From positions 1 to 45,211 of the IMG/VR virus record IMGVR_UViG_3300027852_000067: a DNA stretch of 45,211 nt; one strand, written 5' to 3'. Source of the DNA: a virus. How positions within the stretch are numbered: the stretch's first letter is position 1; each line of letters starts with the position of its first letter. The position numbers were made by a program, and so were the translations under genes. This document shows, in pieces, positions 2,261 through 45,211 of the stretch. Below the pieces are notes generated by a model. It did no database searches, was not told where the DNA came from, and saw nothing but the letters and a program-made list of their open reading frames with translations.

Positions 2261-2268
2261 GATCTCCT

Positions 2269-2616: not shown

Positions 2617-2617
2617 T

Positions 2618-3088: not shown

Positions 3089-3104
3089 GACTTCACCCCC
3101 CTTT

Positions 3105-4340: not shown

Positions 4341-4359
4341 AATTTAAAAATCCTCCGTT

Positions 4360-5892: not shown

Positions 5893-6287
5893 TACCGCAA
5901 TACTCCTATAATTACCCTGTGCCCTGTCGATACAGTAGACTCACTGAAATCAATAAACGGCTTGATATGCTTGCCATCTAAAAAATAAAGGACTATTGCA
6001 TCGTCAGCGCCAGTAGCTGGTACAAGAGGCAATATCTCTGCACCGCTGGCATCCTCCTCCGTGATCTTTAGCTCATCACTTGCAGCTCCGGGAACAAATA
6101 TGATATAATCACATTTAATGCCATCCTTAGACGTAATATAAGGGCTCCCCGTTTGGTTCCACACCCAATCAGCATCTATCGCAGTAATTAATATGGACGT
6201 TTTCCCCCATATGACAGTAGCTGCTCCAAACGCCGTAGATGCCTCGAAAATCAAACAAAAAACGATTAATAACAATAGCTTTTTCAT
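5892..6287 (-). CDS. Small protein with Sec signal peptide between portal and sulfotransferase
   Basis: 131 residues. Residues 1-22 form a classical signal peptide: two lysines, a Leu/Ile-rich core, then an A-F-G-A cleavage region. The mature part is beta-strand rich with no catalytic motif. It overlaps both neighbours by a few bases (portal end at 6284, sulfotransferase start at 5892), so it is translationally coupled to the late operon. Function unknown. A secreted protein at this place in a head operon is unusual. Confidence 0.75.
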   Translation of the reverse strand: MKKLLLLIVFCLIFEASTAFGAATVIWGKTSILITAIDADWVWNQTGSPYITSKDGIKCDYIIFVPGAASDELKITEEDASGAEILPLVPATGADDAIVLYFLDGKHIKPFIDFSESTVSTGHRVIIGVLR

Positions 6288-24454: not shown

Positions 24455-24470
24455 CCAAAAGGAGGGAGCC

Positions 24471-26574: not shown

Positions 26575-26627
26575 TAACCAATAAATAAACCAAACGTAAA
26601 AACAACGCTGGTTATTTTAACATTACC
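26572..26627 (+). other. attC-like site 13 (right end of the array)
   Basis: CATAACC, then AAATAAACCA..ACG against CGCTGGTTATTT with unpaired As, then TTAACATTACC. R'-like CATTACC (26621-26627) overlaps the stop codon of the minus-strand gene at 26623. It is the boundary between the early array and the late operon. Confidence 0.65.
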
Positions 26628-27024
26628 CAGCGTCAACCACACTCTGCAAAAACGATATAAGCTGCTGCAAAAGCACTCTCATATTGAGCGGTTGTGGTGG
26701 TGCTTTAGCGCATGCAGCCTCTGAGAACTCGGATTCGGAAAACTGGTTGAACGCCGTAGCGAAAAAGCAGATGTTATCCAGTGAGTCATGTGGCAATGCA
26801 AAAGAAGGCGTCAAAGAGTCTGTATCTCCAAGGAGCGTCTTTGTGGTGCCCTCGTCCATGGACTCATACCAGCGATAGCCACTGTATGCCGGGTCTGAGT
26901 TTGCTTCTGCAAAATCTACCGGGTCACATTCCAAGTGGAAATCACCTGCCAATGCCTGCCCTGCCAATGCCTGCCCTGCCAATAACAAAAAACTAATCAA
27001 TAAAAAACTTGTTAACTTTCTCAT
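26623..27024 (-). CDS. Secreted protein with Fn3-like domain
   Basis: 133 residues. Residues 1-27 are a signal peptide with a duplicated AGQAL unit before the cleavage site. The rest looks like one fibronectin type III-like domain (GYRWYES .. LDNICFFATAFNQFSESEFSEAACA). A C-terminal helix ends it. Last gene of the lysis cluster on the late strand. Perhaps an envelope protein acting in lysis or adsorption. Not a recognised spanin. Confidence 0.65.
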   Translation of the reverse strand: MRKLTSFLLISFLLLAGQALAGQALAGDFHLECDPVDFAEANSDPAYSGYRWYESMDEGTTKTLLGDTDSLTPSFALPHDSLDNICFFATAFNQFSESEFSEAACAKAPPQPLNMRVLLQQLISFLQSVVDAG

Positions 27025-28558: not shown

Positions 28559-30676
28559 TTATTGTGCCTCTACCGCAATTCCGCCTGCTTTATGCTCCCA
28601 ATCGGGAGCGCCTACTTGGTGTAACACATTACATCCTGGTGTAGCTGGTGCCTGGCCACAGTCAGATGAATCATCCTCAATATCTATTGAGTCAGATGCC
28701 GCACCGATAGAACACCCCGTAGAGGCATTTAATATAAAAACAACGGCCTCTGGTGCTTCGCAATATCCATCGCCACTTACTGGTGTAACAATTAGGTTTT
28801 TTGGCAACTCCGCAAATGCCCAAGTACCGTCCCCGGAATCCGTGTAGTCTGTTGTGAATGTGGCAGTTCCCCCGCGAATATACGTACCGCTCTCCCCTCC
28901 GGTGCATTCGGGACACGTAATTTGGAATGTTCCCGTATCTGGGCCGGTCTCACTTGCACTGGCATCTGTGGCAGTGATATTGACCAAAACAACATATTCT
29001 TCGGCTCCAATGTCAGGCGCAGAACCATAAAGAACTCTGGTTCCGTCTGAATCCTTATAAAGCCAAACATCGTCAGCATCGTTCCTGTTGATTGATCCGG
29101 CTAGTGTAATCGTGTTTGTGTCATAATTAATAGATGAGATTTGGACGGAATTAGTTACTGTATTAACAGCCAGATAGTCCGCATCCACATTATCAACTCC
29201 GTTTCCATCCTGAAAATATAGTGCATTGTCAACGATTAAGGATGTGCCCGTTCCAGTATCGGAACTGTCCACAAATGTTAGGCTCGATCCGACATCTATG
29301 CAAGTAGATGAGCTTTGCAATCCGAAATCGTTTGCCTGCCTATCGACAAATAATGGATCAACTATAAGCCCGTGTTCCTCGTGAGTCGTAGCCGCATAAA
29401 GTGATGCCCTCGTGTAACCAGTGGACCCATAAAGAATACTCCCACCTGCCGTAACGTAATTATTATAGTCATACACGAGATTCGGGTTTGGCAGGTTGTA
29501 GTCAGTGAAATCATAATCAGTATTCGCGTCAAAAATACTGTTCACGACTCCCACTTGACCGTCAGGCCACCACATGAAATAAATGCCGTATGTGTTTTCA
29601 ATATAAACATTATTGTACGCGGATAAATTCGTGAATCCCGGCGGGTCCGGAGAGTATCTGCTGGGCCTCAAACCTCTTTGATTATCACGGAAAATGCAAT
29701 ATCTGACAATTACATCTTCGGCGGAGCTACCTGAACCCGCAATGGCAACACCGTCTTTATTGCCCGAAATAGTGCAGTTTTCGACCGTCACCCCGCTGCT
29801 TCCCATATGGATAACGACACCAGCTCCGCCTCCTGTGACACTGGCAGCATGCCCTGAGATTGTGCTGTTCCTTACTACACCATCGACAACTTGCTTTATG
29901 TCGAGACCGTCCTCTTTATTGTCGTAAATATTGCAATCATCGACTAGGAATCCTGTGCATGCAACATTGTCCCCTATTTGTATTCCATCCTCGGTATAAG
30001 ATTCGTATATGCTGCAACCAACAAATGAGATATAATTGTTGTTTCCCGGAGTTACACCATCACCTTTTCTGATATTCACATTCCCGCCAGCCTGACTAGA
30101 TGGGTTGCTTAACGATCCGCAATGGTAAATGTCAGTGTCCTCGATTAAGAAATAGTGGCAATTTCCGTCAAGCCAAAGCCCAACTCCTCCTGCAGGATCA
30201 GCTTCGGGGGAACTTTTGTATTGAAAATCCTTGATAACGCAATCACTGATCGTAATATGTTCTGAATTCCTAAACCTAAAAGCACCGTGAACTAGAAAAT
30301 CACCATCAAAAATTATATTTTCTATCGAAATATAGTCAACTCCGTCTTGCAGCCAAAGCATTGCGGAGTACCAAGTGTACGAAATAGTGGCCTGTTCGCC
30401 GGTATATGATTTGTAAGTAATTACATTTCCGGATGTTCCGGAATTTGCAGGAGCGATACTGTTTTCCAGATATGTCCCCTGCCTTATATGGACAGTATCA
30501 CCAGCCGATGCGGTATCTGCTGCTTTTTGTATGGTACACCAAGGAGTTGCCAATGCCGTGCCGTTATTGCTATCATTACATGCGCCCCCGATGGAATCTT
30601 TATCGACATAATAATCCGTAGCGAACACAAGCACCGGAAGCCCTAAGAATATAAATACAAATATTAGATATTTCAT
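28559..30676 (-). CDS. Secreted right-handed beta-helix protein (tail spike-like)
   Basis: 705 residues from the ATG at 30676, 4 bases after the stop of the previous gene; an in-frame ATG at 30727 precedes the signal-peptide start. Residues 1-20 are a signal peptide (KYLIFVFIFLGLPVLVFA). TDYYVDKDS and PWCTIQKAADTASAGDTVHI follow, as in DUF1565 and NosD-like beta-helices. Repeated strands with N/D/G turns run to about 480; then a Calx-beta-like or Ig-like end. Presumably a depolymerase or adhesin of the virion or of the host surface. It overlaps nothing and is followed by the XhlA-like gene. Confidence 0.75.
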   Translation of the reverse strand: MKYLIFVFIFLGLPVLVFATDYYVDKDSIGGACNDSNNGTALATPWCTIQKAADTASAGDTVHIRQGTYLENSIAPANSGTSGNVITYKSYTGEQATISYTWYSAMLWLQDGVDYISIENIIFDGDFLVHGAFRFRNSEHITISDCVIKDFQYKSSPEADPAGGVGLWLDGNCHYFLIEDTDIYHCGSLSNPSSQAGGNVNIRKGDGVTPGNNNYISFVGCSIYESYTEDGIQIGDNVACTGFLVDDCNIYDNKEDGLDIKQVVDGVVRNSTISGHAASVTGGGAGVVIHMGSSGVTVENCTISGNKDGVAIAGSGSSAEDVIVRYCIFRDNQRGLRPSRYSPDPPGFTNLSAYNNVYIENTYGIYFMWWPDGQVGVVNSIFDANTDYDFTDYNLPNPNLVYDYNNYVTAGGSILYGSTGYTRASLYAATTHEEHGLIVDPLFVDRQANDFGLQSSSTCIDVGSSLTFVDSSDTGTGTSLIVDNALYFQDGNGVDNVDADYLAVNTVTNSVQISSINYDTNTITLAGSINRNDADDVWLYKDSDGTRVLYGSAPDIGAEEYVVLVNITATDASASETGPDTGTFQITCPECTGGESGTYIRGGTATFTTDYTDSGDGTWAFAELPKNLIVTPVSGDGYCEAPEAVVFILNASTGCSIGAASDSIDIEDDSSDCGQAPATPGCNVLHQVGAPDWEHKAGGIAVEAQ

Positions 30677-30680
30677 CACA

Positions 30681-31253
30681 TCACTCACACACGACCACAT
30701 AGCGGTCCACATCGTTTTGCTCTCCACTATCAGCTACAACAAATGTAGCCGGCCATGACCCATACGTTTCAGTATCCCATTTATGGCCACCACCAGAACC
30801 TGCTGATCTGAATTGGTTATTGCCGGTGCCGCACCACACCGCAATCCAATAATCTGTGCTACCGGATAATGTTGGTTTTGTCCCCGAATAAGTGAACGTA
30901 TTCACGGCGCTATCTGTCGGGTCTGCGATTTCATCCGTAGCACTATTTGCGACTAAGGAATCCGGACTCCCCCCGCTTTCTGTGTATATCGCGCACTTTG
31001 TCTCGTTGTCAGACGTGCCCATATTTACATTAATGCTCTGAACTTCACCCCCGGCACCAGATATCGTTACCTGATAAGCGTATATGTAATTAGCGTACAT
31101 GGTTGCGTCAGGTGTGCCAAGCGATGTGTCGCCATAATCATTATTGACGCATGTTCCGCCGCCAAGTATGGTGACATGCAAGCCGGCAGGGGCATAAGGC
31201 ACACCAACCGATGTCAAGCAAAGCAAAAACAATATGCCAAGATATGTTTTCAT
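30681..31253 (-). CDS. Secreted beta-sandwich protein
   Basis: 190 residues from the ATG at 31253 (GGAGGATTA). Residues 1-22 are a signal peptide (KTYLGILFLLCLTSVG). The mature part has Ser/Thr/Gly-rich strands (VQSINVNMGTSDNETKCAIYTESGGSPDSLV), a carbohydrate-binding-like or choice-of-anchor pattern. It is placed between two large fibre proteins. Role likely binding. Confidence 0.68.
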   Translation of the reverse strand: MKTYLGILFLLCLTSVGVPYAPAGLHVTILGGGTCVNNDYGDTSLGTPDATMYANYIYAYQVTISGAGGEVQSINVNMGTSDNETKCAIYTESGGSPDSLVANSATDEIADPTDSAVNTFTYSGTKPTLSGSTDYWIAVWCGTGNNQFRSAGSGGGHKWDTETYGSWPATFVVADSGEQNDVDRYVVVCE

Positions 31254-31254
31254 A

Positions 31255-34200
31255 TTAATCCTCCTCAGCATGGAAAATAAGAGAAAATGTGCATATTACG
31301 TTTGAATCTGTTGGATCTGCACCGAAGCCGATATAAACAAATTGCCCCGCCGCAACCGCAGCACCTGCATTAATATTTGCGTCGGTATCCTCTGAAGCAA
31401 CCCCGCTTGTGGTATCAATCACATCCATTACGGCGGCATTGGCAAGCCCTATCTGCGCATCTGCACGCTTTAGGTCTGCATCAAGCTCCGTGGTTGGATC
31501 TTTATTGTAACTTATATTCCACTCATCAATAATGATTCCGTTTGGGTAAAGGTCTGCTTCAACAGTAAAAAGTGGTACAGTCCTATTAGTGCTTTCCTGG
31601 TCATACATATAGGCAGGGTCAAAGGTAATTGTCACCATGTCAAGAACACTTTTCGTTACTTCCCCTGCAACTTCACCACCAGCACCCATATCATAGGATA
31701 TTCTGTCTTCATCCCCTCGGATATGTACTTGTCCGTCCGTTGCTAGAGTTCCATCTGCGCTTTCATCGAATGGCAAAACAAGTGAGCCAATGGCAAGTGT
31801 GGTCGGATCACTCATGCCAACATTCAGGCTTTCACATATCCAACGTGTGCCATCCCAGGTAAAAAGCAAGAGAGTTATTTGGCTTGCGCTACCTGTGAAA
31901 TCAACATTTGCATTTCCTTCGATGTTTGCGTTTGAACTGAAATCTATAGTTGTATCTGCGTCATCAACCCGAAGGATGAACCAGTCCCCGGCTGTAAACT
32001 CTGAGTGGTCGTCTGTGTCATCAAAATCCGTGATAGTAGTTGCCCCGGTATTCGCAGTCTGCCAGAACCGGGCAACGCTTGTTCCACCATTGGTCACGTC
32101 TGGCGTAGCGTCTGCGTCCCCGAATGACTGCATGGTCTCTCCTTCGGTTAGCCGTGCTACATCTGCCAAGGCTTGGTCAATACCATACAAGTGTGCCGTC
32201 AAATCATCCACGCTGTCTGCTTGTGCTGGCGTTGTTGCAGGCGTAGAATTAGATGGCGTCCAAGTAATTTCCACTTTGTCACCGTCTATAGCATCATCCC
32301 CTCCGTCTATATGCTCTGAGGCGTGTGTTTCTTCTTCAAGATCTGCCGTAACGTCTGTCCCGGCGTTCTGATCAGTAATCTGTTCGGCAAGTATCATGCC
32401 TGCATACGTATTCCATGAAACCCCATCCCATCTTAGGCTGGAACTCTGCCCTAACGTATTAAACACAATATCAGGACAATTCGCGCAAGTAGTATCTGTC
32501 ATGGCAACCGTCACTGTATCGTCACTGTCTATGTCTGCATAGGCTATCAGGTGGACTATTTGCCCTGCGTATTCACCATCCTGGAGGTCTATGGTGTCAT
32601 TATCACTGTCGTTGTCGCCGTCAAGCAGAATGGTTTGCATAGTCAATGGGTCTGTAATATCGGCCTCTGTCGTGAATGCAAAGGTTATCGTTTCGTCTAG
32701 CCCGATATTTCCGGAACAGTAAGCGCCTGTTGGGGATACAAGGCTGATATCCGTATCGTTATTGTCCCAACAATGGTTGTTTCTAAGCAATATGTCCGTG
32801 ACCGCCGTGTTGTTCCCTATATAAATTCCATAATCCTGATCGGCCCCTGAACACTGGTTGCCTTCAATAATAACATTGTCAATTAAAGATGAACTATGCG
32901 GTAAAGTTATACCTGATTTTGTTCCTCCTGCGCCACCGTTGTCTTTGCATTGATTATTTGAAATTATAATATCTTCTGCGTAATATAGCGCAATTCCATT
33001 AGTCACAGAATCGTGGATATTATTATATATTACCGAAACGTCTTTTACAGGATAACTTGAAGTTCCGGATAGCTGTATCGCGTTTGATCCAGCAGTATCA
33101 ACTTCAACATTTGCTATTGTTCCGTTTCTAGCACTAAACCTGACATGAGAAGCCGCTGTGTCATCTAACACAATTCCTTGGCCTACTGAGTCAACAATTT
33201 TGCCATTCGATATTCCAAATCCATCTAATGTTTCCAGATGGATAGCATCATCACCATTTGTATCAAAGTAAAAATCATCTAAATAAACAGCTTCAGCGTT
33301 AGAAGAACATGCAAAACCAAAACTTGTCGTATTGTCAGCCTGAACATTCACATAATGAACATCGCGCAATCTGTTGGTATCACTCGTGGCGTCAAGTCGA
33401 TTAGCATTATTGCTGACACCAGTTGCATCAACATTTGATATTTCTAACCCGTCAACATAGATATGCTGGATTATTCCACCACCAACTGTGCTATTATTGT
33501 TGATCGTAAAAGCAGCAGAAGAACACCCAGTCTCAATTTTCATCCGGTCAATATAGATAAATTCACAAGTGCTATTCTCCCCCGGCCTGACCCTGAATGC
33601 ATGCACATCGCCATCATGCAACCATATATCATGAATTCTGATATCATCCGAATCTCCTGTAACTTCGAGACATAATGAGCTTGCACGCGCTGCGGATTGA
33701 CCGTCTATTTTATATCCGCCAGTTTCAAAATTAGTGCAATCGTTTATGAGAACAGCCTTGCCATCGGCCTGCAAATCAAGAATGGTTGTCCAGTCGTCAG
33801 CAAGCAGGAAACCATTATCCACTCCGGTTATCGCATCGGCAATATCATAGGTAACGCCTGATAATAGCTTGACTTTCCCACAAGCATCTAAGCCAGATTG
33901 AATCTGGACGTTGTCAGCCGTCCCGTCCACATTAAACCATTCCGCGCAAGCTACTGTTTCTTCAGGTAAAGTTAAGGTGCCCGTGTCAGTGTCGTCTATC
34001 CAGTAAAAAGGGGCTGTTGGAGCAAGGGAGTTAATGGCGAGGTTATATGTCACCCGGTCTATCACATTCCCCGGCGTAGGCAGGATCGTCACCTCAGCAT
34101 CGAAAGAGACTGATTCATCCATTGTGACGGCTTCATCAATTTTCAATAGAACGTCAGTTCCTAAAGCATTTAAGATAGTTGCAGCAGCAGCTAAATCAGC

Positions 34201-34410
34201 AAAAGCATCATCTGACAACTTATACTTATCAGACGCCATAAGATTAGAAACGGTTATCTTCTTACTTGTTCCGCCGTCATTGATATACATCTCATCCGTG
34301 CTGGCAGGCGCTTCATCAAGCTCAGTTAGATCACTCAACTTAGTGCTGGCAGCGTACCCGTCAGATGCAACCATAAAAAAAGCAATCAGCATAAATAATA
34401 ATTTTCTCAT
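31255..34410 (-). CDS. Giant secreted tail fibre / spike with beta-helix
   Basis: 1051 residues. Residues 1-21 are a signal peptide (RKLLFMLIAFFMVASDGYAAS). The segment KLSDLTELDEAPASTDEMYINDGGTSKKITVSNL is the usual start of phage fibre repeat regions. From about 170 to 560 there is a right-handed beta-helix with turn pattern VENCTIS-like units (SDDIRIHDIWLHDGD, ISNNQCKDNGG, IIEGNQCSGADQDYG). A C-terminal region of about 300 residues carries trimer-like beta domains and an end domain. Likely a receptor-binding protein or polysaccharide lyase. Start has a ribosome site GGGGAAGAA. Confidence 0.75.
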   Translation of the reverse strand: MRKLLFMLIAFFMVASDGYAASTKLSDLTELDEAPASTDEMYINDGGTSKKITVSNLMASDKYKLSDDAFADLAAAATILNALGTDVLLKIDEAVTMDESVSFDAEVTILPTPGNVIDRVTYNLAINSLAPTAPFYWIDDTDTGTLTLPEETVACAEWFNVDGTADNVQIQSGLDACGKVKLLSGVTYDIADAITGVDNGFLLADDWTTILDLQADGKAVLINDCTNFETGGYKIDGQSAARASSLCLEVTGDSDDIRIHDIWLHDGDVHAFRVRPGENSTCEFIYIDRMKIETGCSSAAFTINNNSTVGGGIIQHIYVDGLEISNVDATGVSNNANRLDATSDTNRLRDVHYVNVQADNTTSFGFACSSNAEAVYLDDFYFDTNGDDAIHLETLDGFGISNGKIVDSVGQGIVLDDTAASHVRFSARNGTIANVEVDTAGSNAIQLSGTSSYPVKDVSVIYNNIHDSVTNGIALYYAEDIIISNNQCKDNGGAGGTKSGITLPHSSSLIDNVIIEGNQCSGADQDYGIYIGNNTAVTDILLRNNHCWDNNDTDISLVSPTGAYCSGNIGLDETITFAFTTEADITDPLTMQTILLDGDNDSDNDTIDLQDGEYAGQIVHLIAYADIDSDDTVTVAMTDTTCANCPDIVFNTLGQSSSLRWDGVSWNTYAGMILAEQITDQNAGTDVTADLEEETHASEHIDGGDDAIDGDKVEITWTPSNSTPATTPAQADSVDDLTAHLYGIDQALADVARLTEGETMQSFGDADATPDVTNGGTSVARFWQTANTGATTITDFDDTDDHSEFTAGDWFILRVDDADTTIDFSSNANIEGNANVDFTGSASQITLLLFTWDGTRWICESLNVGMSDPTTLAIGSLVLPFDESADGTLATDGQVHIRGDEDRISYDMGAGGEVAGEVTKSVLDMVTITFDPAYMYDQESTNRTVPLFTVEADLYPNGIIIDEWNISYNKDPTTELDADLKRADAQIGLANAAVMDVIDTTSGVASEDTDANINAGAAVAAGQFVYIGFGADPTDSNVICTFSLIFHAEED

Positions 34411-34655
34411 TTCTTCCCCTTATCGTCATAATCAGGTGGTAGTTCGCCTTTCCCCTTTAAGCTATCAATAGCCAATTTCCTTATTTCCTTCTGGATACTA
34501 AGCTCTTCTGTAGACGCCCCAATTATGTCCCGGCCCTGGTAGGCTTTTACCTTGGCATGGTCGGAATTGATCATGTGCTGGGTAGGATATTGCATCGCCT
34601 TAAACAGGCCTATGATATTCTTTTCCTGGTCGTAGTCCACATATAGCGTTCCCAT
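34407..34655 (-). CDS. Small helical protein between fibre genes
   Basis: 82 residues. A YVDYDQEKNIIGLFKAMQYPTQ start, a middle with a basic patch, and an EELSIQKEIRKLAIDSLKGKGELPPDYDDKGKK end. Overlaps the next gene by 4 bases. Function unknown; it may be a chaperone or an adaptor for the fibre proteins. Confidence 0.65.
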   Translation of the reverse strand: MGTLYVDYDQEKNIIGLFKAMQYPTQHMINSDHAKVKAYQGRDIIGASTEELSIQKEIRKLAIDSLKGKGELPPDYDDKGKK

Positions 34656-36316
34656 TAGTTCTTGCCCCTATCCCAAATATAGCCCTGTGTCGATATTTTG
34701 AGCGTGGTTGATCCAGTATTCGAGCGTGTCCTGACTTGAGCACTGGTATCCGTAAGAACGCGAAGCCTCGAAGCATTCCTAGTAAGAAACGCCCCCGTTA
34801 TACTGCATGATACGAGTTCTTGCAGAGGGGCGGCAGATATAGATGGCGATTCATCACTAATATTAGGGCTTGATATTCTAACTATTGCCCCTGTAGCGTG
34901 ATAGATATAAACGTTCAGGATTGCCTCAACCTCGGCTCCCGTTGGCACACCCGATAACACCCTAAGATCGGCTGTGGCGTCTTCAGTAACCTCGATGTCG
35001 AGTGCAGGATCATCCCACAAGAGAATGTCCCCTGAATGATAAAACGGAAGAATATCAGCGGTTCCATCAGTTAATACGGACCCTATCCACCTAAATTCTG
35101 TGTATCCAGTTGGTATGTTGGCCGCCGAAGTTGATGTGTCGAACCCCGCGTCTATTGTGCCGTCTGAGTCAAGCCGGATCAGGAAAAGATGATACCAAGT
35201 TGAATTTCCAACTGTCCCCGTGAACATCCCTCCCGCGTCATCACCAGATGCGAACGTGGCGTCTATCCGCTTGGTAAGTACCGAAGATAACGCAAGATTA
35301 ACCGCGTCTGTACTATCCCGTGCCCCACCTACCGCAATAGCCACATCTGCGTCAGCGTCAGTATCGTTAGACATTTGAAGTCCGGAGATCCAGCCAATAG
35401 GGAAGGGAGTTCGCCCCTGATCAGTTAGCTGAACTTCATCACCGTCTGATTCTTCCACGGCGTACAGTTCGCTTGCGCCGTCTTTGGCCTGGACAAACAC
35501 CCCCATCTGGTTAGCATCTGTGGTAGGCGCAGTGGTTTCATCCATTGTCAATAACGGGACTTCCGGCTCGTCATTATCATTAACCTTAATCATATCTACG
35601 GAGCCAGTCCCGGCCGCATTGACTGACTGCCAATATGTGTTATTGGCCCAAGACGCATTATGGCTATAGGCGAATTGTAGGTTTGTGCCATCCGAATAGA
35701 GGGTTACCGCCTCTCCGGTAGTGGTTAGAACGATAGTGGAAGATCCCCCGATGGTCTCTGCCCCGTTCGGGTCAAGAGTTAGTTGGTTCGATGCTTCAAC
35801 GAGAGTAAAAGTGATATGCCGGCCGGCACCAAGGGTAGCCGCCGCTACAAGGTCAATTTCGACATCACCCGCTGTCGTGTCCACCTCTATCAAGTCGTCA
35901 GTGGAAAGCATGGTGTATGGGGTGTCTGAATTGTCTATGGCCGTCCTGTTCCATTTGAATGCCACACCGTACCCGGTAACATTATCTATGGTCCAGTAGG
36001 TTGTGCTGGGCGGGTGTGACTCCCCCGATGGAGCGAAGACAACCGTGTAAACACCATCCAGGTATATATCCACATCGGCTACTCCATCACTTCCAAGCAC
36101 AACAGGGTTAGTATTGGCTGTGCTGAGAGCATAGTTCGAGTAAGTATCCTTCTTTGTGGTTGTGCCGTTCTCGTAAAAGAACAGTTTGTCCCCTGCCCGG
36201 GGATCTCCATTGCCGTCAAAGGCTGAAAACCGTGGGTAATTGAAGCTCTGCACGGCGTAGAGTGGTGCTGTGAATAGTAATATCGCGGTAATTATGGTAA
36301 TTATTAGTCTTTTCAT
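34655..36316 (-). CDS. Secreted tail-fibre-like protein
   Basis: 553 residues from the ATG at 36316 (AAAGGAG 7 bases upstream; the longer frame to 36394 overlaps the previous gene). Residues 1-22 are a signal peptide (KRLIITIITAILLFTAPLYA). The next domain (FNYPRFSAFDGNGDPRAGDKLFFYENGTTTKKDTYSN..) matches the N-terminal virion-binding domain of phage tail spikes. The rest is strand-rich. A signal peptide before a head-binding-type domain is odd; see the findings. Confidence 0.72.
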   Translation of the reverse strand: MKRLIITIITAILLFTAPLYAVQSFNYPRFSAFDGNGDPRAGDKLFFYENGTTTKKDTYSNYALSTANTNPVVLGSDGVADVDIYLDGVYTVVFAPSGESHPPSTTYWTIDNVTGYGVAFKWNRTAIDNSDTPYTMLSTDDLIEVDTTAGDVEIDLVAAATLGAGRHITFTLVEASNQLTLDPNGAETIGGSSTIVLTTTGEAVTLYSDGTNLQFAYSHNASWANNTYWQSVNAAGTGSVDMIKVNDNDEPEVPLLTMDETTAPTTDANQMGVFVQAKDGASELYAVEESDGDEVQLTDQGRTPFPIGWISGLQMSNDTDADADVAIAVGGARDSTDAVNLALSSVLTKRIDATFASGDDAGGMFTGTVGNSTWYHLFLIRLDSDGTIDAGFDTSTSAANIPTGYTEFRWIGSVLTDGTADILPFYHSGDILLWDDPALDIEVTEDATADLRVLSGVPTGAEVEAILNVYIYHATGAIVRISSPNISDESPSISAAPLQELVSCSITGAFLTRNASRLRVLTDTSAQVRTRSNTGSTTLKISTQGYIWDRGKN

Positions 36317-36329
36317 TGTTGCCGCTCCT

Positions 36330-38987
36330 TTATAACGCTGATAATTCCGGGCTCGGTTTTGATTCACGGTCTTCTCTTGTGTATGGCACCCCAAGTGAAA
36401 AAAGGCGTGCCCCTAATCTTTTAGCCTTCTTTTCTGGGAAAGAACCAAATCTAATACTTTCAGCCATTTCTTTTGCCACTTTTGGGTCATAAAGCGCTTC
36501 CCTCATTAGCATGTCAAAATGTCGTTGCGCTTTTTTATATAATGATGATTTAATAATATCAAAAGCCAGGTAATATTTCGGAACTCTACCTGACATAAAT
36601 GCCCAATATCTAGTAGCTGCCTGCGGAACTGCCATCCCAGTTATATCTTCAAAGCCTTTAAGCGGCATTTCAGTGTGGGCCTTTCCTTTTGGCGCTGGGA
36701 GCCGTTCCATCATTGCTTTCATAGCAGACACATCTTCTATGTTTTTTAAGTGTACAGGGCCAAAAAGCTTCTTGAGGGGCTTCCTATTGTTATTAATCGA
36801 AGTCAGAATATCTTCAGATGAACCCTGCGTGATATTTTCCCATACCACCCTTTTCAATGAACCGATTGCCTTTCTATCCGTATTTACTAAATCAACTAGG
36901 TCTCCCATCAATCTTTCGTCTGTCATTGCGCTTGTTAAAACCTTATCAGCGGCTATAGAGCCTTTCTTGTACCGTGTAAGGATCTTCACCAAAGCGTTGT
37001 CTTCTATATATTTTTGCCGCCCTGCTAATTGGGCCTGTCTATCCCAAAGGATATTTTGCGCATCCTCAAGTTTATTAATAGATTTAGATATATGAGGGAA
37101 TTCTTTTAAAACGTCCTTGTTTTTTGCTTTCCATGCTGTTAATTTCTTGCTATCGATTAAGCCGTCCACCGTCACCTTGCCGACCAGGCTATCCAATGCT
37201 GAATCATGTATGGCCTTCATCATAGAAGCATCTTTGCCAAAAACTTCCCTGAACTGCTTTGCCGAAGATTGATTCTTTAGAAACTCGCCCGCTATGCTTT
37301 CGTCAGATGTTCTGTAGAACCCAGTGCCATCTTTCCTCCTTATCTTGAATACCGCACCTTGCTCGAACGGTTTTATGAAATTATCAAGATATTCTTTTCT
37401 GAACTGTGCATAATTTTTGCCAAGTTGCTCGTCTAATGAATTAACTAAGCCGTCGACATCTTTCTTCAACCTGGTTAGCATTCTTATCTTTGGCCTATCT
37501 TTATTAACTGGAGATAGTGCCTTTATCATTTCATCAGTTATTTTCTCTCGAATAGCCTTGATGTCTACAAATGTAGTTGGTTTTGTTTCCCCTGCCTTCG
37601 TTGGTGCATAAATAAATCCAGCTACTGTTTTTTTCTTTTTTGGCTTATCAGCTATAATCTTTCTTAATATTTTAGGATAGTCCGATTTGTCCTGGAATCT
37701 ACTGACAAGTTTATATTTTTTTGTTACTTTCTTGCGCCACTCATTAAATGGGATTGTCAAATCAGCATCATTTATGCCAAGTTCTTCAGCCCTTATAGAC
37801 ATTTTCAAACTAGCATCTGTTCTTGCCCTGTCTACTCCATCCCTAATAAGCTGCCCTGTTTCCATCTTATCAATTTCAGGGACTTTCCCAACAAGCTTTT
37901 TTTGGGACTGAATGTTTTTTGAAACAAGGCGGTCTATAGTTTCTCCAACCACCTCCATCCTTTCATTTGCCGAATGCACGACAAGCCCTGGGTTAACATC
38001 GGCATCAGGAGCAGCATTATTTGTAAATCGACTAATGGCTTGCTTGTTAGTCCTTCTTTTCGCTATTATTTCCTCTAAAAACTTTCCTTGCGCCTCAGAT
38101 TCTATAGCCCTTTGCTGTGCCAATAATGCCGGGCTACCAGACGCTTCAGCAGTAGACGGTTCAAGCCCTGGAGCCTTTTTTCTAAGTCGTTCTGATTTTG
38201 CAATATTTTTCAGTGATTCTTCAGACATAGCACCACTCATCACTTTATTAATCGCATCTTGCGCGGCTGCTGTTTGCGCTTTGGATGAAAAACGACTTGT
38301 TAGTTTTCTCCCAAGCCTAAAAGCTAAAGAAGAAGGCGAGCCTGCGAGTGCTGTTGGCGCAATACCGCCTGCTAACTGGCCGAATGTCTCTGCCGTAGTG
38401 TTGTTAGGTGAAATTTCTCTAGCAATGCCAGCACCAGCGCCTGCACCCATGGCAGCGACTGTTTCCCCTATGGTTGCTTTCCCTGGTGTCCTCGCGATAG
38501 GGGCAAGGATCTGTTCCTTGATTAAGCCTTTCGCGCCAATGTCAACCGCTGCTTTTGCAGCCCCCGCAGCTTTCAACATCCCCCCTGCCGGCAATGCTGT
38601 TGCCCCCAATTCTTCCCCTACACGGTGCGCAACACGCCCTAATGTTGTATCTGGGCCTTCTGAATACATCTCGCCCATTACTGGTTCTGTTTTTTCTACT
38701 TGTTTTCTGAGCCATTGCGAACCGCCAACGGGTTTTTCCTCCGCACTAGGGCCGACCTCCAACCCTAATTCAGCCCGGAACTTGGAGGCCTGCTCTAAAA
38801 TAGCATTAGTAATGTCAACTGGCATTCCTGCCATCTCAGTTAGCCCAAGATTGAACCCGCCTGCAAAACCTTCTCCGTATTTCGTTATTTCAGGGTTCAC
38901 GTTCACGACTGTTGATTCGTTTTCCCATCGCGATTTCTGTTCAGGCGGAGGCTTAACGCCTACTATTGATTCATCTTCCCATCTCAT
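36330..38987 (-). CDS. Internal virion / DNA ejection protein (gp16-like)
   Basis: 885 residues. A Gly/Ala-rich, membrane-active segment at about 155-215 (IGETVAAMGAGAGAGIAREISPNNTTAETFGQLAGGI), then long helices up to the C-terminus. This is typical of ejection proteins such as P22 gp16. It overlaps the gp20-like gene by 4 bases. The three genes 41.0 to 36.3 kb follow P22 order gp7-gp20-gp16. Ejected with DNA to build a trans-envelope channel. Confidence 0.72.
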   Translation of the reverse strand: MRWEDESIVGVKPPPEQKSRWENESTVVNVNPEITKYGEGFAGGFNLGLTEMAGMPVDITNAILEQASKFRAELGLEVGPSAEEKPVGGSQWLRKQVEKTEPVMGEMYSEGPDTTLGRVAHRVGEELGATALPAGGMLKAAGAAKAAVDIGAKGLIKEQILAPIARTPGKATIGETVAAMGAGAGAGIAREISPNNTTAETFGQLAGGIAPTALAGSPSSLAFRLGRKLTSRFSSKAQTAAAQDAINKVMSGAMSEESLKNIAKSERLRKKAPGLEPSTAEASGSPALLAQQRAIESEAQGKFLEEIIAKRRTNKQAISRFTNNAAPDADVNPGLVVHSANERMEVVGETIDRLVSKNIQSQKKLVGKVPEIDKMETGQLIRDGVDRARTDASLKMSIRAEELGINDADLTIPFNEWRKKVTKKYKLVSRFQDKSDYPKILRKIIADKPKKKKTVAGFIYAPTKAGETKPTTFVDIKAIREKITDEMIKALSPVNKDRPKIRMLTRLKKDVDGLVNSLDEQLGKNYAQFRKEYLDNFIKPFEQGAVFKIRRKDGTGFYRTSDESIAGEFLKNQSSAKQFREVFGKDASMMKAIHDSALDSLVGKVTVDGLIDSKKLTAWKAKNKDVLKEFPHISKSINKLEDAQNILWDRQAQLAGRQKYIEDNALVKILTRYKKGSIAADKVLTSAMTDERLMGDLVDLVNTDRKAIGSLKRVVWENITQGSSEDILTSINNNRKPLKKLFGPVHLKNIEDVSAMKAMMERLPAPKGKAHTEMPLKGFEDITGMAVPQAATRYWAFMSGRVPKYYLAFDIIKSSLYKKAQRHFDMLMREALYDPKVAKEMAESIRFGSFPEKKAKRLGARLFSLGVPYTREDRESKPSPELSAL

Positions 38988-40249
38988 TTTTTAGTCCTTA
39001 AAGTACCTTTGGGATCAATAAATTGCTGACCTGATTTTAGCCCATCAAAGTCTTCATCATTTTTTATTCTAGTCGGAACACCTAGAAGGCCAAGGAAATG
39101 TTCGATATCGTTAGCTGATTGAATAGCAGCTTGCCGTTGTTTTGATGGTATCATTCTATTTTGTGCTGTTTTAAGTTCTTTTTCTATTCTGCCTTTGAGG
39201 TACTCGTCTATCGCTACAGCCCTATGTTGCATTTGCTTCGGGTTATCAAAAATAGTAGGTGAAATATTGATCTCCTCCCTTATCCTATTTATTTCACCAA
39301 CTGGGAATCTAGGGTTGATAGATAAAGCTCTTATGAGGTCATTTTGGGCACTTTTTATGTATTGCCTTGCCTCTACTGTCTTTTCAGCTATAGGACCACC
39401 TACCATTCCAGACACGGCAGATGCACCTGACTTTAACGCAGACAATGGGCCTGTCCCCAGTGCTGTCATGTCCCATATTGTTCTTCTTGGCTCCCCATTA
39501 TCTTTTGCTTCCGCAGGTGCAGCTTGATCAGCAACGCTCAACCTGGAAACTGTGTTGTCTGTCAAATCAACCAAGGAAATCTCTTGGGTAACAGGGTCCT
39601 GCTGAACCTTTATTCCTCCTGTTACTATTTTTGTTGCTTGCCCCCGTGAAACACCGGGGATTGCTTTCAGTATTGCCTCAATTTTTTGCTTGAATACTGG
39701 CTGGCCATCGCCTTCCTCCTCCGCAGCCATTGTTATGTTCACATTTTCCATTAAAGCAGCGTTATAAATAGCGTCAAACTTGTCTCTTTTTTCATCCGCA
39801 GACCCTGGTTCGGCCTGGAGATTAGCAAGCGCCATCTTATGTTTTACAACAGCCTTACTTGGACCTTCACTAATATTGCCGTTGTTGTCAGTGAATTTTA
39901 CGTCATCGCCATCTCGTTCTATCTCAAAATCACCATATTTCTCTTTATATTCAGGCCCGAACTCCGCCTCCATATTTGGATCTGAAATCATCGCAGCCAT
40001 GACCTTATGTTGCAAAACAAAACTTTTTTGCCGCATATCCATCTCATGCGTTTCACCAGCCCGTTGCTCTCCGGCCACGGCTCTCTGTTCTCCGCGCACA
40101 TCAAGAGCATTCTGCATGTCCAAGCGGCCCATACGCTTTCTAGCCAACTGGTTGGCTAATGCGTCACCTTGTGGATTCTGGTTCCCCCTGAGAGTTGAAA
40201 GGAAATTAGGTGCAGAAGGAACTTGCGGCCTTGCGATATTCAATGGCAT
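38984..40249 (-). CDS. Internal virion protein (gp20-like)
   Basis: 421 residues, mostly helical, with a long charged N-terminal helix (RMGRLDMQNALDVRGEQRAVAGEQRAGETHEMDMRQKSF). It lies between the gp7-like and gp16-like genes. In P22 gp20 is ejected with DNA. Family by position and helical content. Confidence 0.65.
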   Translation of the reverse strand: MPLNIARPQVPSAPNFLSTLRGNQNPQGDALANQLARKRMGRLDMQNALDVRGEQRAVAGEQRAGETHEMDMRQKSFVLQHKVMAAMISDPNMEAEFGPEYKEKYGDFEIERDGDDVKFTDNNGNISEGPSKAVVKHKMALANLQAEPGSADEKRDKFDAIYNAALMENVNITMAAEEEGDGQPVFKQKIEAILKAIPGVSRGQATKIVTGGIKVQQDPVTQEISLVDLTDNTVSRLSVADQAAPAEAKDNGEPRRTIWDMTALGTGPLSALKSGASAVSGMVGGPIAEKTVEARQYIKSAQNDLIRALSINPRFPVGEINRIREEINISPTIFDNPKQMQHRAVAIDEYLKGRIEKELKTAQNRMIPSKQRQAAIQSANDIEHFLGLLGVPTRIKNDEDFDGLKSGQQFIDPKGTLRTKK

Positions 40250-40260
40250 GGTATGTCTCC

Positions 40261-41022
40261 TTATCTATTCAGGCTTATTTGCCTGGTCAGTGCGTTACCC
40301 CAGTTAGGTTGATCCGTCAAGTTCCTGCCTTTCATGGAACTTAATATATTCGACGAATACGGCGACGATGGGGACATTGAACCTCCGCTTGACAGCACGT
40401 TTGGAGTGCTGCCCATTCCACTGACTATCGCGCCACCAATTGAGCCCAAGCCCTGAACTCCAGCGGAGATAGCCTGCCCTTTTAGGTCAGCCACCCTGAA
40501 GCCGCCCATTGCCGCCCCTGCGTAACCTGCTGCTTTCATTCCCGCTTGGTTTTCCTTATACGCTTGGCGTAATGACTCACGGTCGCTCAGGGCGTTCATG
40601 CCTTGCGCCGTTGTTATGTCCAGGTTGTCAATGGCGTTCTGGAAATCCTGGTCGGCCAACCCGCCAGCAAACTCAATAAGAGCCTTACTTCTTGCGCCGC
40701 CATAGCGTCCCTTTGCAAGCGCGTTCCGGCTAATGGCCTTCTCCCCCTCGTCCATTTGGAACTGATACCCGGGGCTTTCACGATATAGGGAATAATCATC
40801 CCCGGTAAGCAACTGGAACTTGCGCTCGAAGGCTTCCAGGCCCCTTTCGACATATGGGTCATAATATTGCGAAATGCCGTCCCCCTCCCCTGTTCCTGTG
40901 AAGGTCTGCCACAAGTCGTCAGCCGCCCTCGACATGCGCTTTCTGTAATGCCTGGCAGATCTGCTGCTTCCAGATGCCGCTGACGCCGCGCCCAAAGCGG
41001 CTCCTATTGCTTCAAATGGCAT
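40261..41022 (-). CDS. Internal virion / DNA transfer protein (gp7-like)
   Basis: 253 residues. An Ala/Gly-rich start (AIGAALGAASAASGSSRSARHYRKRM), then YYDPYVERGLEAFERKFQLLTGDDYSLYRESPGYQFQMDEGEKAISRNALAKGRYGGARSKALIEFA. That run is highly typical of phage DNA-transfer proteins of short-tailed phages. Ribosome site GGAGGTATGAG. Acts at genome ejection. Confidence 0.75.
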   Translation of the reverse strand: MPFEAIGAALGAASAASGSSRSARHYRKRMSRAADDLWQTFTGTGEGDGISQYYDPYVERGLEAFERKFQLLTGDDYSLYRESPGYQFQMDEGEKAISRNALAKGRYGGARSKALIEFAGGLADQDFQNAIDNLDITTAQGMNALSDRESLRQAYKENQAGMKAAGYAGAAMGGFRVADLKGQAISAGVQGLGSIGGAIVSGMGSTPNVLSSGGSMSPSSPYSSNILSSMKGRNLTDQPNWGNALTRQISLNR

Positions 41023-41038
41023 TGCTCATACCTCCGTT

Positions 41039-42058
41039 CTATAATTTAATGTCTAACCGAGTCCTTGTGCTACCGCCGCCGCCGCTGTAGCCGTATGCCC
41101 CTATTTCTACGCCGCTAATCCATGCCCCAACAGGCGTGTCGGTCGTGTCGCTCCACACTTGATGGTTCCACAAATCGTACTTATCACCGTCCCCGTCAGA
41201 GAACGGATCAGTCCCGGTGTTTATACAAGGAGATCCGCCTTTCAAAGTCCCATCAGAATTAATGCTCGGATCAGCCGCGCTATTATTCCCACCATCCGTG
41301 TAATTACTCGCAGCGGGGATATAGGAATAGCTGACATTCGCTGTTCCAAACTCATCCGAATTTCCTGCATCAGAAGTATTTCCATAAACTATGCAGTTCT
41401 TAAAAATAACATCGGCATCAGAACAATTAATTCCTCCAAATGACACAGAAGTACTGTTTATTATTGTGCAGTTTGTTACTTCTGGAGAATCTGCATTACC
41501 AAACCATCGCATGGCTCCCCCGGAAGAGGCAGCAGAGCAATTAGCAGCTAGAATGAAACTAAGTTTTGGATCGCAACCAGCGTCTCTTCCATATATAGCG
41601 CCACCGTAATCAGCTGAACAATTTGTAATTTTACCTCTACAAATAGTTGGGCTAGCACCCTCCATTAAGATTCCGCCGCCATTGGATATAGAATTGCCAT
41701 CAGTAATAATGAACCCCTCCAGAACAGCGGCGTTAGTTTCCCCATTATGAAAATAAAACCCCCTCGTAGCCCCAGGAGGATCAACAGTAAAGTAATCAGC
41801 CTGATACGGCTTAACAGTGAACCCGTTAGGTGCTGCGCCCCAGTCTATGCTCTCGGTGTAGGTGCCTGTGTCTGCTACCCAGACCGTGTCGCCATTAGCA
41901 GCTAAGTTAATCCCTGCTTGGAGCGTCTTCTTAGCTGTGGCAGGGCTTTCACCGTTTCCGGAGTCATCTGCCATTGTCGCATCCACATAGTAATCTGTAG
42001 CAGCAACAGGAGACGCGATGAATAGCAGCGCAAAGAATATTACTATTAGCTTTTTCAT
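41039..42058 (-). CDS. Secreted beta-helix protein
   Basis: 339 residues. Residues 1-20 are a signal peptide (KKLIVIFFALLFIASPVAA). TDYYVDATMADDSGNGESPATAKKTLQAGINLAANGDTVWVADTGTY matches the start of the 705-aa protein at 30676 (TDYYVD, then a DUF1565-like segment). The rest is a short parallel beta-helix. Possibly a depolymerase or fibre. Starts one base before the end of the previous gene. Confidence 0.7.
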   Translation of the reverse strand: MKKLIVIFFALLFIASPVAATDYYVDATMADDSGNGESPATAKKTLQAGINLAANGDTVWVADTGTYTESIDWGAAPNGFTVKPYQADYFTVDPPGATRGFYFHNGETNAAVLEGFIITDGNSISNGGGILMEGASPTICRGKITNCSADYGGAIYGRDAGCDPKLSFILAANCSAASSGGAMRWFGNADSPEVTNCTIINSTSVSFGGINCSDADVIFKNCIVYGNTSDAGNSDEFGTANVSYSYIPAASNYTDGGNNSAADPSINSDGTLKGGSPCINTGTDPFSDGDGDKYDLWNHQVWSDTTDTPVGAWISGVEIGAYGYSGGGGSTRTRLDIKL

Positions 42059-42696
42059 TATTGCCTCCCCCGAATCGTCACGTCAGGCATAGAATCCTTG
42101 ACCACTCCGATATTCAGCTTTAGCTTGGCATTCACCTTGTCGTGCCTATACCCTTGTGCTAAAGCAGAGACGGAAACCTGTTTAACTAATTCCACCTTTG
42201 TATCCTCCCGGACCAACCAGTAATTGCCAAGCGTAGCCTTCGGATGAAGCACAACCTCCAGGTTCCCGCCAACTTCTTTCCAGGCCTCTTTGTGGATAGT
42301 TCTCATGCCATTGTAAAATATAACCTTTCCTTTACTCTCGTCGTGCTTGATAATGCACTCCCCGAAACGCCACCAAGCAAGGGAATACCCCTGAAAGCCA
42401 CCCCGGTAAGTCACATTGGTCCCTTTAATATTGATCGTGTCACCTGCTTTGACGGCAGAGGCCTGTAGGTTAGCCACTGACACAAACGGTGCATCCTTCG
42501 CCCCTGTCTGCTTTTCCTTTGGCGGATTCTCAATCAGCGTATTATCTAGCCAGTACTCGGCTGCTTGCGCGTTCCCGCATAAGAAGAATATAGCCAGTAT
42601 GATCATTAATATCTGCATGCGTTCCCTCATTAAGTTGCTAATTAAAGTTTGCTTCAGGATAAATATAGAAAGAAAAAGGGTTAATGGTTTTCTCAT
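42058..42696 (-). CDS. Secreted structural-like protein
   Basis: 212 residues as given. An internal start at 42618 (AGGGAAC 3-8 bases upstream) is equally likely and gives a clean signal peptide (QILMIILAIFFLCGNAQA) and 186 residues. The upstream start at 42696 also has a ribosome site (GGGAGACGGC). The mature part is AEYWLDNTLIENPPKEKQTGAKDAPFVSV.. with strands. Similar in layout to the TDYYVD proteins (AEYWLDN). Function unknown. Confidence 0.65.
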   Translation of the reverse strand: MRKPLTLFLSIFILKQTLISNLMRERMQILMIILAIFFLCGNAQAAEYWLDNTLIENPPKEKQTGAKDAPFVSVANLQASAVKAGDTINIKGTNVTYRGGFQGYSLAWWRFGECIIKHDESKGKVIFYNGMRTIHKEAWKEVGGNLEVVLHPKATLGNYWLVREDTKVELVKQVSVSALAQGYRHDKVNAKLKLNIGVVKDSMPDVTIRGRQ

Positions 42697-43049: not shown

Positions 43050-43516
43050 CTATTGAACTCCTGCATTACAAGGATGTTGGCACCTACAAAATATCGTTCA
43101 TCGCCACGGTTGTCTGTATGATAATTGGTATGATCATCGTCTGATCGTCCGCTTAACCCTCCATGGTCTATTTGAGCGCCGCCCCCTCCTGTGTGGTTAT
43201 GAGAATCGCCACCTGTTACGCCCTCGCTTGATGATGCCTTGCCATTGAGTTGCGTCTGGATTGCCGATGACACACCGTTCAACGTCTGAAATTCAGCATT
43301 GCTGATATCGGCGGCGTCAAGCCCTGAATCTTTGAATATTCCTGTCGCAGTGTATGACGCAAGATGGTCTTCCGAGCCAACACCAACAGGAGCCAAGGCA
43401 TCGTTTGTGGCGCTTATGATATCTACCATTTTACGATGGAAGAACCTGCCAAATACAGGCCCGAACGCCTTAATGAATGATACAGATGCTTGCTTTGGTA
43501 AATCCTGAACAGCCAT
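43046..43516 (-). CDS. Tail needle / fibre base-like protein
   Basis: 156 residues. A helical N-terminus, then GVSSAIQTQLNGKASSSEGVTGGDSHNHTGGGGAQIDHGGLSGRSDDDHTNY: the S-x-x-I-Q-T-Q-L-N-G-K motif of phage fibres and a His/Gly-rich loop as in long tail-fibre trimers (metal-binding HNHT/DHTNY pattern). Placed after gp10 like the gp26 needle in P22. Which part it plays is not certain. Confidence 0.65.
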   Translation of the reverse strand: MAVQDLPKQASVSFIKAFGPVFGRFFHRKMVDIISATNDALAPVGVGSEDHLASYTATGIFKDSGLDAADISNAEFQTLNGVSSAIQTQLNGKASSSEGVTGGDSHNHTGGGGAQIDHGGLSGRSDDDHTNYHTDNRGDERYFVGANILVMQEFNR

Positions 43517-44925
43517 TACCCGCCCCTAGCCTCGTATATAGTCCGCTCAACAGGGCTTGATATAACTGCCCTGAATATACGGCCTTTCCTGCGCGTCATG
43601 CCAAGCCTACGCCACACCATACGCTTTTCGTATTCGCCTTTTTCGCCTATCTCCCGATACCCCTTCACGGTCCAAGTCTTGCCGTTATCGTCGCTATATT
43701 CCAAACGAGCTGACGGGGTGGACCCAGCGGCAGGTGACACTAAATCATTGGTTAGCCCTACCCCTGGCTGCATATCAAGTTCAAAAAAGCTCCATGGTTG
43801 CCGCTGGCCTTTATCCGGAATATGAGGGCTTGTCCATTCTGATATGATTTCATGCCCATTATCGTGATACAAAGATCCGTCCAGTTTCCAGATGATGCCG
43901 TTGTCCCGGTCCCCTATTAAATGCTCCCGGTTAAAGTACCCAAGATACTGGTTAATTCTGTGAGCCGCCTGATCCGGGTAGCTGGTCCATCGATACCAGA
44001 CGCTTGATTCTAATTTAGCACTTGCGGAAATGTCATAGATGAAAGTCTTGTTGCCAGTCGGAAAAGTGATCACGTACCACCATGAGCCGTACCAGTTTAT
44101 AGTAAAACCCTTAGCATCCGAAACGGTAGACATATCGGCTATTTCCTGCTCTATTTTCTCCGTGCTTATCTGCTTTGTGGCATACCCGATGCTCCGCCGT
44201 ATCCTGTCCATGTTGTCCAAGAAAAATATGCTTGTATCTCCAACCGCCAAACTATCCGCTGCTCCAAGGCCGATACTATGATCAACCGCCTGAACTTTCT
44301 TAAACGGGAATGCCGCCGTGCCATCATGAATGTAAAGCTCAATACTATCGGTCCCGAACTCCCATAATTCACCATCAAGGGATTCTGAACCAACTAGATT
44401 GTCAGGCTGACGATTGGCCTCTTCATAGTCTAGCGGGTCCCATGCCGTGTAGTCTCCCGCCGTACATACATAAAAGTCCGCCGTGTCTTCACTGACAACA
44501 AGTGCATAAGTGTCCTGCGCCGTAATAGATTGAATGGCCGGCAAGTCAGTGTCAGATATAATCGTCAGTGTTTCCGCTGATATATCATATACATAGGCGT
44601 TCACACCATAGATTGCTACCATTATCTGCGTGCCGTTGCAGATCATCTTGGCCCGGCCTGAAAGAGTAGAAACGCTACCTATCAGGCTATAGGTTACCTT
44701 GTTTGTTGTTTTATAAAAGCCACTGCCGATGAGGACATAGAGTATCCCGGCCTGAATAAAACCGGCTCTGACAGGCTGCGGATGGGTGGAGCTCAAGTCC
44801 AGCCATGGAGAAGGTACGGCAGGCGTACATTTCAGACATGGGCCTCCGCGCGGGCCTTCATGAAGATAATACAGGTTACGCGGTAGCGCTACCTGGTTGC
44901 CTGGTATGATGAGAGGGATGTCCAT
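43516..44925 (-). CDS. P22 gp10-like tail hub / DNA stabilisation protein
   Basis: 469 residues, close to the 472 aa of P22 gp10. N-terminus DIPLIIPGNQVALPRNLYYLHEGPRG, repeats of strands with WxxD and TxxI, and a middle with SLAVGDTSIFFLDNMDRIRRSIGYATKQISTEKIEQEI, all typical of the gp10 beta-propeller family. It comes after the gp4-like gene. It closes the portal channel and anchors the spikes. Family confidence is high. Confidence 0.82.
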   Translation of the reverse strand: MDIPLIIPGNQVALPRNLYYLHEGPRGGPCLKCTPAVPSPWLDLSSTHPQPVRAGFIQAGILYVLIGSGFYKTTNKVTYSLIGSVSTLSGRAKMICNGTQIMVAIYGVNAYVYDISAETLTIISDTDLPAIQSITAQDTYALVVSEDTADFYVCTAGDYTAWDPLDYEEANRQPDNLVGSESLDGELWEFGTDSIELYIHDGTAAFPFKKVQAVDHSIGLGAADSLAVGDTSIFFLDNMDRIRRSIGYATKQISTEKIEQEIADMSTVSDAKGFTINWYGSWWYVITFPTGNKTFIYDISASAKLESSVWYRWTSYPDQAAHRINQYLGYFNREHLIGDRDNGIIWKLDGSLYHDNGHEIISEWTSPHIPDKGQRQPWSFFELDMQPGVGLTNDLVSPAAGSTPSARLEYSDDNGKTWTVKGYREIGEKGEYEKRMVWRRLGMTRRKGRIFRAVISSPVERTIYEARGG

Positions 44926-44934
44926 TTTTTCGCC

Positions 44935-45211
44935 TTATTCAAGGAGCAATGACCCGCCTTCTTCAACCATAAGTGAGTCTTCTTCTCCAACGCCTACCTG
45001 GCATGACGATCCGCCACTGGATGCAATCTCGATAATAGCTGGCTGGACCTTTCTGGCAGCGTTAAGAGACACAAGCCTTTGGCTACTTCGCTCCGCCTTG
45101 ATGATCATAAATTGGCTTGGTGATTGCCCGTAATTCATGGCTAATTCAACTGCCAACAGCCATTTGAATGGAGAATGATAGTTCCTTGCAAGCCCTACGT
45201 CATTAAGCAAA
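44935..45211 (-). CDS. P22 gp4-like protein, C-terminal part (continues at 624-8)
   Basis: The last part of the protein that starts at 624. Through the direct repeat it gives a continuous 255-residue frame (256 codons with the stop at 44935). The tail here is SSQRLVSLNAARKVQPAIIEIASSGGSS followed by an acidic end, which the left-end copy lacks because of the bad contig end. Confidence 0.75.
   Translation of the reverse strand, partial: LLNDVGLARNYHSPFKWLLAVELAMNYGQSPSQFMIIKAERSSQRLVSLNAARKVQPAIIEIASSGGSSCQVGVGEEDSLMVEEGGSLLLE
45086..45211. repeat. Terminal direct repeat, right copy
   Basis: Identical to 8-133. Assembly overlap of a circular or permuted genome; the unique length is about 45,078 bp. 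Confidence 0.9.

Follow-up and report, generated by a model that had tools for sequence, protein, structure and literature searches.

Predicted Sec signal peptides on tailspike-like, fibre-like and beta-helix tail proteins of an uncultured P22-like phage

The virions of tailed phages are assumed to be finished in the cytoplasm. The P22 tailspike joins the particle last, and it can be supplied in vitro to particles that lack it. The tailspikes of P22, Sf6, Pam1 and Pan3 (PDB 1lkt, 7eeq, 9vyg) start at their head-binding domain and are not preproteins. Here, we describe a tail operon in IMG/VR record IMGVR_UViG_3300027852_000067, a 45,211-nt stretch (the window) that is probably the near-complete genome of a P22-like short-tailed phage. 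Its gene 34655 (genes are named by their lower coordinate) encodes a protein that resembles these tailspikes in head-binding fold, in sequence family and in its late-operon place past the DNA ejection genes, but that has a predicted signal peptide (SP) ahead of the domain.

Other uses of host Sec by phage late proteins have been described. Secreted and signal-arrest-release (SAR) endolysins use it for lysis (PMC6116005), and the gp40 esterase of phage PBR31 carries an SP (PMC10975493). These proteins share the export route with the window set but have lysis functions rather than tail attachment modules. SignalP calls on phage proteins are otherwise scattered (PMC5723332, PMC10194101), and target proteins of phage diversity-generating retroelements were reported without signals (PMC6199706). 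We found no description of an SP fused to a tailspike head-binding domain in the literature searched, which did not cover most subscription journals.

We looked for SPs of the Sec/signal-peptidase-I type with a rule that combines a charged n-region, an uncharged hydrophobic core and small residues at -3/-1. In a control region of Escherichia coli K-12, the rule flagged all eight exported proteins; of the 36 others, it flagged one, PdeC, which is a membrane protein. A looser rule matched many shadow open reading frames (ORFs), so a stricter one that also requires a Shine-Dalgarno (SD) site was used; it gave seven matches on real window genes, none on shadow ORFs, and none in the relatives BA3 and Vibrio 1.183. 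A sequence-only reading of this DNA had proposed signal peptides at starts 30676, 31253, 34410, 36316, 42058, 6287 and 27024, and probably at 42618. The rule accepts the first seven; each has an SP that begins at an ATG and has a hydrophobic core free of charge, preceded by a charged n-region and followed by a small-X-Ala cleavage site. The start at 42618 is the only one that it does not accept: a hydrophobic core and a cleavage site are present, but the n-region lacks K/R and the gene has two possible starts. The predicted SPs of the window thus hold and exceed what chance would give. In the tail region they fall into two main classes, SP plus virion-attachment module (class A; 34655 and 31255) and SP plus beta-helix (class B; 28559, 41039 and 42058).

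The gene that carries the central observation is the following (^ marks predicted cleavage here and below):

34655..36316 (-), tailspike-like protein, 553 aa: SP 1-21 MKRLIITIITAILLFTAPLYA^VQS, head-binding domain at about 22-115, a second beta domain and a variable C-terminal part

The head-binding-like domain noticed in the sequence-only reading is of the P22/Pam1 type and directly follows the SP; its normal role is to dock the tailspike on the tail. It matched 7eeq_A with phmmer as a single sequence (E = 3e-6) and as a 51-sequence profile (E = 1.7e-20), and its model (core predicted local distance difference test [pLDDT] 93-97) gave Foldseek matches to the head-binding domains of the Pam1, Pan3, P22 and Sf6 tailspikes. 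The model of the full-length protein was poor (pLDDT 42.5), and the C-terminal part had no enzyme match, no Pfam match at cut-off and no recognised relative among solved structures. The gene lies in the tail operon past the DNA ejection genes, as do those of P22-type tailspikes. Because this is the single copy of the domain in the genome, the spike, if present in the virion, comes from the SP-bearing gene.

A head-binding domain at or near the initiator Met is a typical, though not strictly defining, trait of tailspikes, and 34655 departs from it. The N-terminal domain is shared with the SP-less tailspikes of Thalassomonas BA3, Shewanella X14, Vibrio 1.183 and Xanthomonas PBR31; in these and in VvAW1 it starts at the initiator Met. 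A full-length SP-less ortholog is found in contig L090/L178 (IMGVR 3300021512_000031; 48% identity in alignment A6, 39% by blastp). In contrast to 34655, this ortholog and the isolate tailspikes have their Met 1-15 residues before the domain and no SP. The same small neighbour follows the tailspike gene in both genomes:

34407..34655 (-), SP-less protein, 82 aa, next after the tailspike gene: 33% identity to L178 10050-10298

We then compared 142 distinct copies of the domain, from two scans of viral contigs (designated by L numbers) plus the window. In the 135 SP-less copies, Met stands a median of 22 residues before a fixed anchor (interquartile range 22-23). In the seven SP-bearing copies (the window, L095, L107, L229, L244, L272 and L279), predicted cleavage falls 20-25 residues before the same anchor; the start of L272 met no SD pattern. 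Cleavage of 34655 would therefore be predicted to leave the mature protein with its N-terminus where the SP-less copies have theirs. The SP sequences differ among these copies, so the join between SP and attachment module probably arose more than once.

SPs of this kind could arise on paper if the true starts lay past the SP-coding stretch. Some of the SPs are indeed followed by in-frame GTG or TTG codons, and SD-like sites (-6.0 to -6.8 kcal/mol) precede internal TTGs of gene 26623. Against a background mean of -2.6 kcal/mol, however, SD energies at the SP starts 36316, 34410, 31253, 42058, 6287 and 27024 were -8.0 to -12.0 kcal/mol, whereas those at in-frame starts just past the SPs of 34655, 31255, 30681, 28559 and 41039 were 0 to -3.4 kcal/mol. 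For 34655, the SD is -8.0 at ATG 36316, and there is none at the GTG past the SP. The best SD of gene 28559 precedes ATG 30712 (-6.4), which would add 12 residues, and gene 42058 has candidate starts at 42696 (SD -9.0) and 42618 (SD -6.1). Translation from past the signals, the sequence-only reading's own proposal for what would overturn it, is thus disfavoured in the main tail genes by the start-site sequences, and the arrangement recurs in other phages; we regard wrong starts as extremely improbable. The strong SDs and this recurrence also led us to reject an annotation artefact as the source of the SPs.

The hydrophobic segments might instead stay on the proteins as uncleaved N-terminal anchors with a role in the virion or in DNA ejection, as the sequence-only reading had suggested among its options. 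Ejection proteins of P22-like phages do enter the envelope. However, an AXA-like cleavage site stands behind every core, and the known DNA ejection genes of the window have no SP, which makes such anchors very unlikely.

The second class A gene and its neighbour are as follows:

31255..34410 (-), tail protein, 1051 aa: SP 1-20 MRKLLFMLIAFFMVASDGYA^AST, fibre N-terminal module ASTKLSDLTELDEAPASTDEMYINDGGTSKKITVSNL and a beta-helix region (Beta_helix/NosD)
30681..31253 (-), SP-bearing protein of unknown fold, 190 aa: SP MKTYLGILFLLCLTSVGVPYAPA^GLH, SD -12.0, four Cys in the mature part

Gene 31255 has an SD of -8.4 and a Pfam Beta_helix match (2e-6). The N-terminus of its fibre module (TKLSDLTEL...STDEMYINDGGTSKKIT) lies past the SP in the window and past a different SP in L197, and in L199-L202 the module begins directly at Met. 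L197, a phage fragment that has no match to the window's head-closure protein, encodes at 2511-3980 a second SP-bearing fibre-like protein. The 30681-31253 product had no Pfam or PHROG match.

Class B consists of three genes:

28559..30676 (-), SP MKYLIFVFIFLGLPVLVFA^TDY, ATDYYVD N-terminus and right-handed beta-helix, 17 Cys: Pfam Beta_helix 7e-17, DUF1565 1e-5
41039..42058 (-), SP MKKLIVIFFALLFIASPVAA^TDY, ATDYYVD N-terminus, beta-helix-like, 8 Cys: SD -11.3, between the needle-like and DNA ejection genes
42058..42696 (-), short DUF1565-like SP-bearing protein: MQILMIILAIFFLCGNAQA^AEY at 42618, weakly alignable to 28559 and 41039

The N-terminal part of 41039 is paralogous to 28559 (32% identity over 137 aa, E = 2e-8), and 41039 is tied to Beta_helix/DUF1565 only through this similarity. 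Both resemble secreted bacterial DUF1565/beta-helix proteins in having an SP, an xYYVD... N-terminus and a right-handed beta-helix, but they are encoded in a phage tail operon. Among 79 Planctomycetota genomes, 24 encode homologs of 28559, and in nine of ten inspected an SP stands at the equivalent boundary. The origin of 28559, 41039 and 42058 is thus well accounted for by capture of secreted host genes, and to this extent the earlier suggestion that the genes were taken from secreted bacterial proteins stands. A phage relative of 28559 in L005 is SP-less (start MTTYYIAPS), and an alignment of beta-helix N-termini (A5) offered no segment with enough conservation for a scan. As an explanation of the whole set, in which the SP came along with captured genes and now does little or merely persists, capture appears rather improbable. 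It leaves unexplained the SPs on phage attachment modules that begin at Met elsewhere (34655, 31255, L107, L095, L229, L244, L272, L279 and L197), and these SPs differ from one another.

The beta-helix folds also bear on what we consider the main rival, namely that the proteins are free secreted enzymes rather than virion parts. In this view, a form of which was among the options of the sequence-only reading, they would be exported, and lysis would set them free as soluble depolymerases or adhesins able to clear the exopolysaccharide that surrounds the cell. Beta-helix folds are typical of polysaccharide enzymes, a match to xylosidase 3vst was obtained, and secreted bacterial homologs exist. 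Pantoea WceF, a bacterial tailspike-like glycanase, is likewise a beta-helix trimer made with an export signal, although it belongs to a bacterial exopolysaccharide cluster and uses a twin-arginine translocation (Tat) signal (PMC7949094). However, 34655 retains its head-binding domain, the sole copy, at the exact canonical distance, an argument that is weaker for class B, and its C-terminal part matches no enzyme. We therefore consider free enzymes unlikely, although they are to be taken seriously. An endolysin-like function, secreted or SAR, was rejected, as no muralytic domain was found in the ten tail-region proteins scanned (28559-42696).

Exported spike-derived proteins could also coat the receptors of the producing cell, protecting progeny and blocking superinfection. 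T5 Llp and phi80 Cor are small exported phage proteins of this kind, and receptor-binding proteins would be natural masks. The window proteins are instead large, multi-domain products of a late tail operon, and masking would not need a head-binding domain. We judge this explanation to be quite improbable.

SP-bearing tail proteins were also found in L169, L171, L179, L189, L191, L226, L229, L232 and L268, often directly past an SP-less tailspike. In L169 (P22-like, 1-4811) and L268 (7592-11190), an SP-less head-binding tailspike is followed by four to five consecutive SP-bearing genes; in L171, L191, L226 and L232, one large SP-bearing gene lies directly past the tailspike. L179 encodes a pectate-lyase-like protein with an SP and an HNNDGTHD-type motif; its gene lies between the head closure and ejection genes, the placement of 41039 and 42058 in the window. 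L189 encodes a 1002-aa SP-bearing protein. L179 and L189 come from a Planctomycetota and a Sulfotelmatobacter metagenome-assembled genome (MAG), respectively, which are weak host clues because MAG bins may misplace phage contigs. The SP-bearing fibre of L191 (16931-18736, past the tailspike) lies on a P22-like contig binned into a Bdellovibrionaceae MAG and may point to a host that can be cultured; against isolate records, only its C-terminal part matched. A search for close relatives of the 548-aa SP protein of L169 returned only itself, and no isolate homologs of the 630-aa SP protein of L171 were found.

A strict census of late-strand ORFs with an SP in relatives gave 0/642 (the head-closure loci), 5/380 and 3/209. 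Its counts are underestimates, because MalE and LamB would both fail these thresholds. We also rejected the idea that all tail proteins of the family carry SPs, given the 0/642 in this census. Cys content was 1.37% in mature SP-bearing tail proteins versus 0.71% in SP-less tailspikes (one-sided p = 0.005), a comparison confounded by family and phylogeny.

Two further strict-rule matches lie outside the tail region, and the P22-like landmarks of the window are listed with them:

5892..6287 (-), SP-bearing protein, 131 aa, adjoining the portal gene: SP MKKLLLLIVFCLIFEASTA^FGA, SD -8.5
26623..27024 (-), SP-bearing protein, 133 aa, at the lysis end: SP MRKLTSFLLISFLLLAGQALA^GQA, SD -8.4, internal TTGs as above
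43516..44925 (-), gp10-like head closure protein: phrog_578, E = 6e-77, anchor of the P22-like tail module
40261..41022 (-), DNA ejection protein: phrog_598, SP-less, no Cys
8282-9646, terminase
6284-8281, portal
3105-4340, coat

The late genes run in the order head closure, needle-like, SP genes, ejection, large ejection-like and then 34655. Bases 21-120 are repeated at 45099-45198 as exact 20-base pieces; the record overlaps itself at its ends and is therefore probably a near-complete circular genome. The first bases of the contig differ despite this overlap (1-120/45099-45198), so a gp4-like gene appears truncated at position 1, with its true C-terminus near 44935. The head-closure protein is 23-34% identical to those of the nearest annotated phages, and a search of 50,697 phage records for near-identical DNA found none. 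When the ejection and head-closure proteins were each used singly as queries against viral contigs, no relatives were returned; alignment-based scans did find them.

Several other genes were seen in passing. The head operon encodes a sulfotransferase-like protein at 5191-5892 (LSYPRCRSTWFGQFL...), with homologs among the virion genes of L178 (10744, 32%) and, by a similar motif, L173 (12973). A fusion of glycosyltransferase-like and methyltransferase-like parts lies between the coat and gp4 genes (947-2260); a related 251-aa protein is encoded in L172 at 4081-4836. Apart from the tail set, two early-strand proteins at 19340-19612 and 24441-25013 (+) carry lipoprotein-type signals (...AYGC and ...LFGC).

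Taken together, these data lead us to favour, tentatively and short of calling it probable, the interpretation that the late operon encodes tail proteins as genuine Sec preproteins, that cleavage would restore their canonical N-terminus, and that they would join the virion late, around lysis. Nascent chains would be exported by SecA/SecYEG and cleaved by signal peptidase I; the cleaved spikes would fold and trimerise in the periplasm and join the tail once holin and endolysin mix the compartments. Because the P22 tailspike joins the particle last, and can do so in vitro, docking at lysis is feasible. Possible gains would include disulfides and periplasmic folding, keeping polysaccharide-binding or -cleaving spikes out of the cytoplasm, and additional spikes derived from captured secreted beta-helix proteins. 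A fuller scheme of two-compartment assembly, in which the cytoplasm is where capsid and tail stump form and spikes are Sec-exported, processed, matured in the periplasm and docked at or after lysis, having arisen repeatedly by placement of an SP exactly before attachment modules, is possible but somewhat more doubtful.

Several points weigh against the preprotein interpretation. The SPs were called by a rule of our own rather than by SignalP, and export, cleavage and presence in the virion are what we infer from the sequences. The isolate relatives inspected have the head-binding domain without an SP, so export is not needed for the usual job of the domain. Mature 34655 has one Cys; disulfides therefore cannot be the reason for its SP. 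Assembly after lysis would depend on dilution, and no described precedent was found in the literature searched. The sequence-only reading had held export to be surprising for virion parts that assemble in the cytoplasm. That premise is what the finding questions, rather than an argument against the SPs.

The idea is directly testable, since orthologs with and without an SP occur as natural pairs. Some phage tails may be completed outside the cytoplasm. Should some of the receptor-binding apparatus mature in the periplasm, phages would have a route for turning secreted host proteins into new spikes, and an SP would be no ground for excluding a protein as virion material. The view of tail assembly, of spike folding, including disulfides and trimerisation, and of lysis timing would then change.

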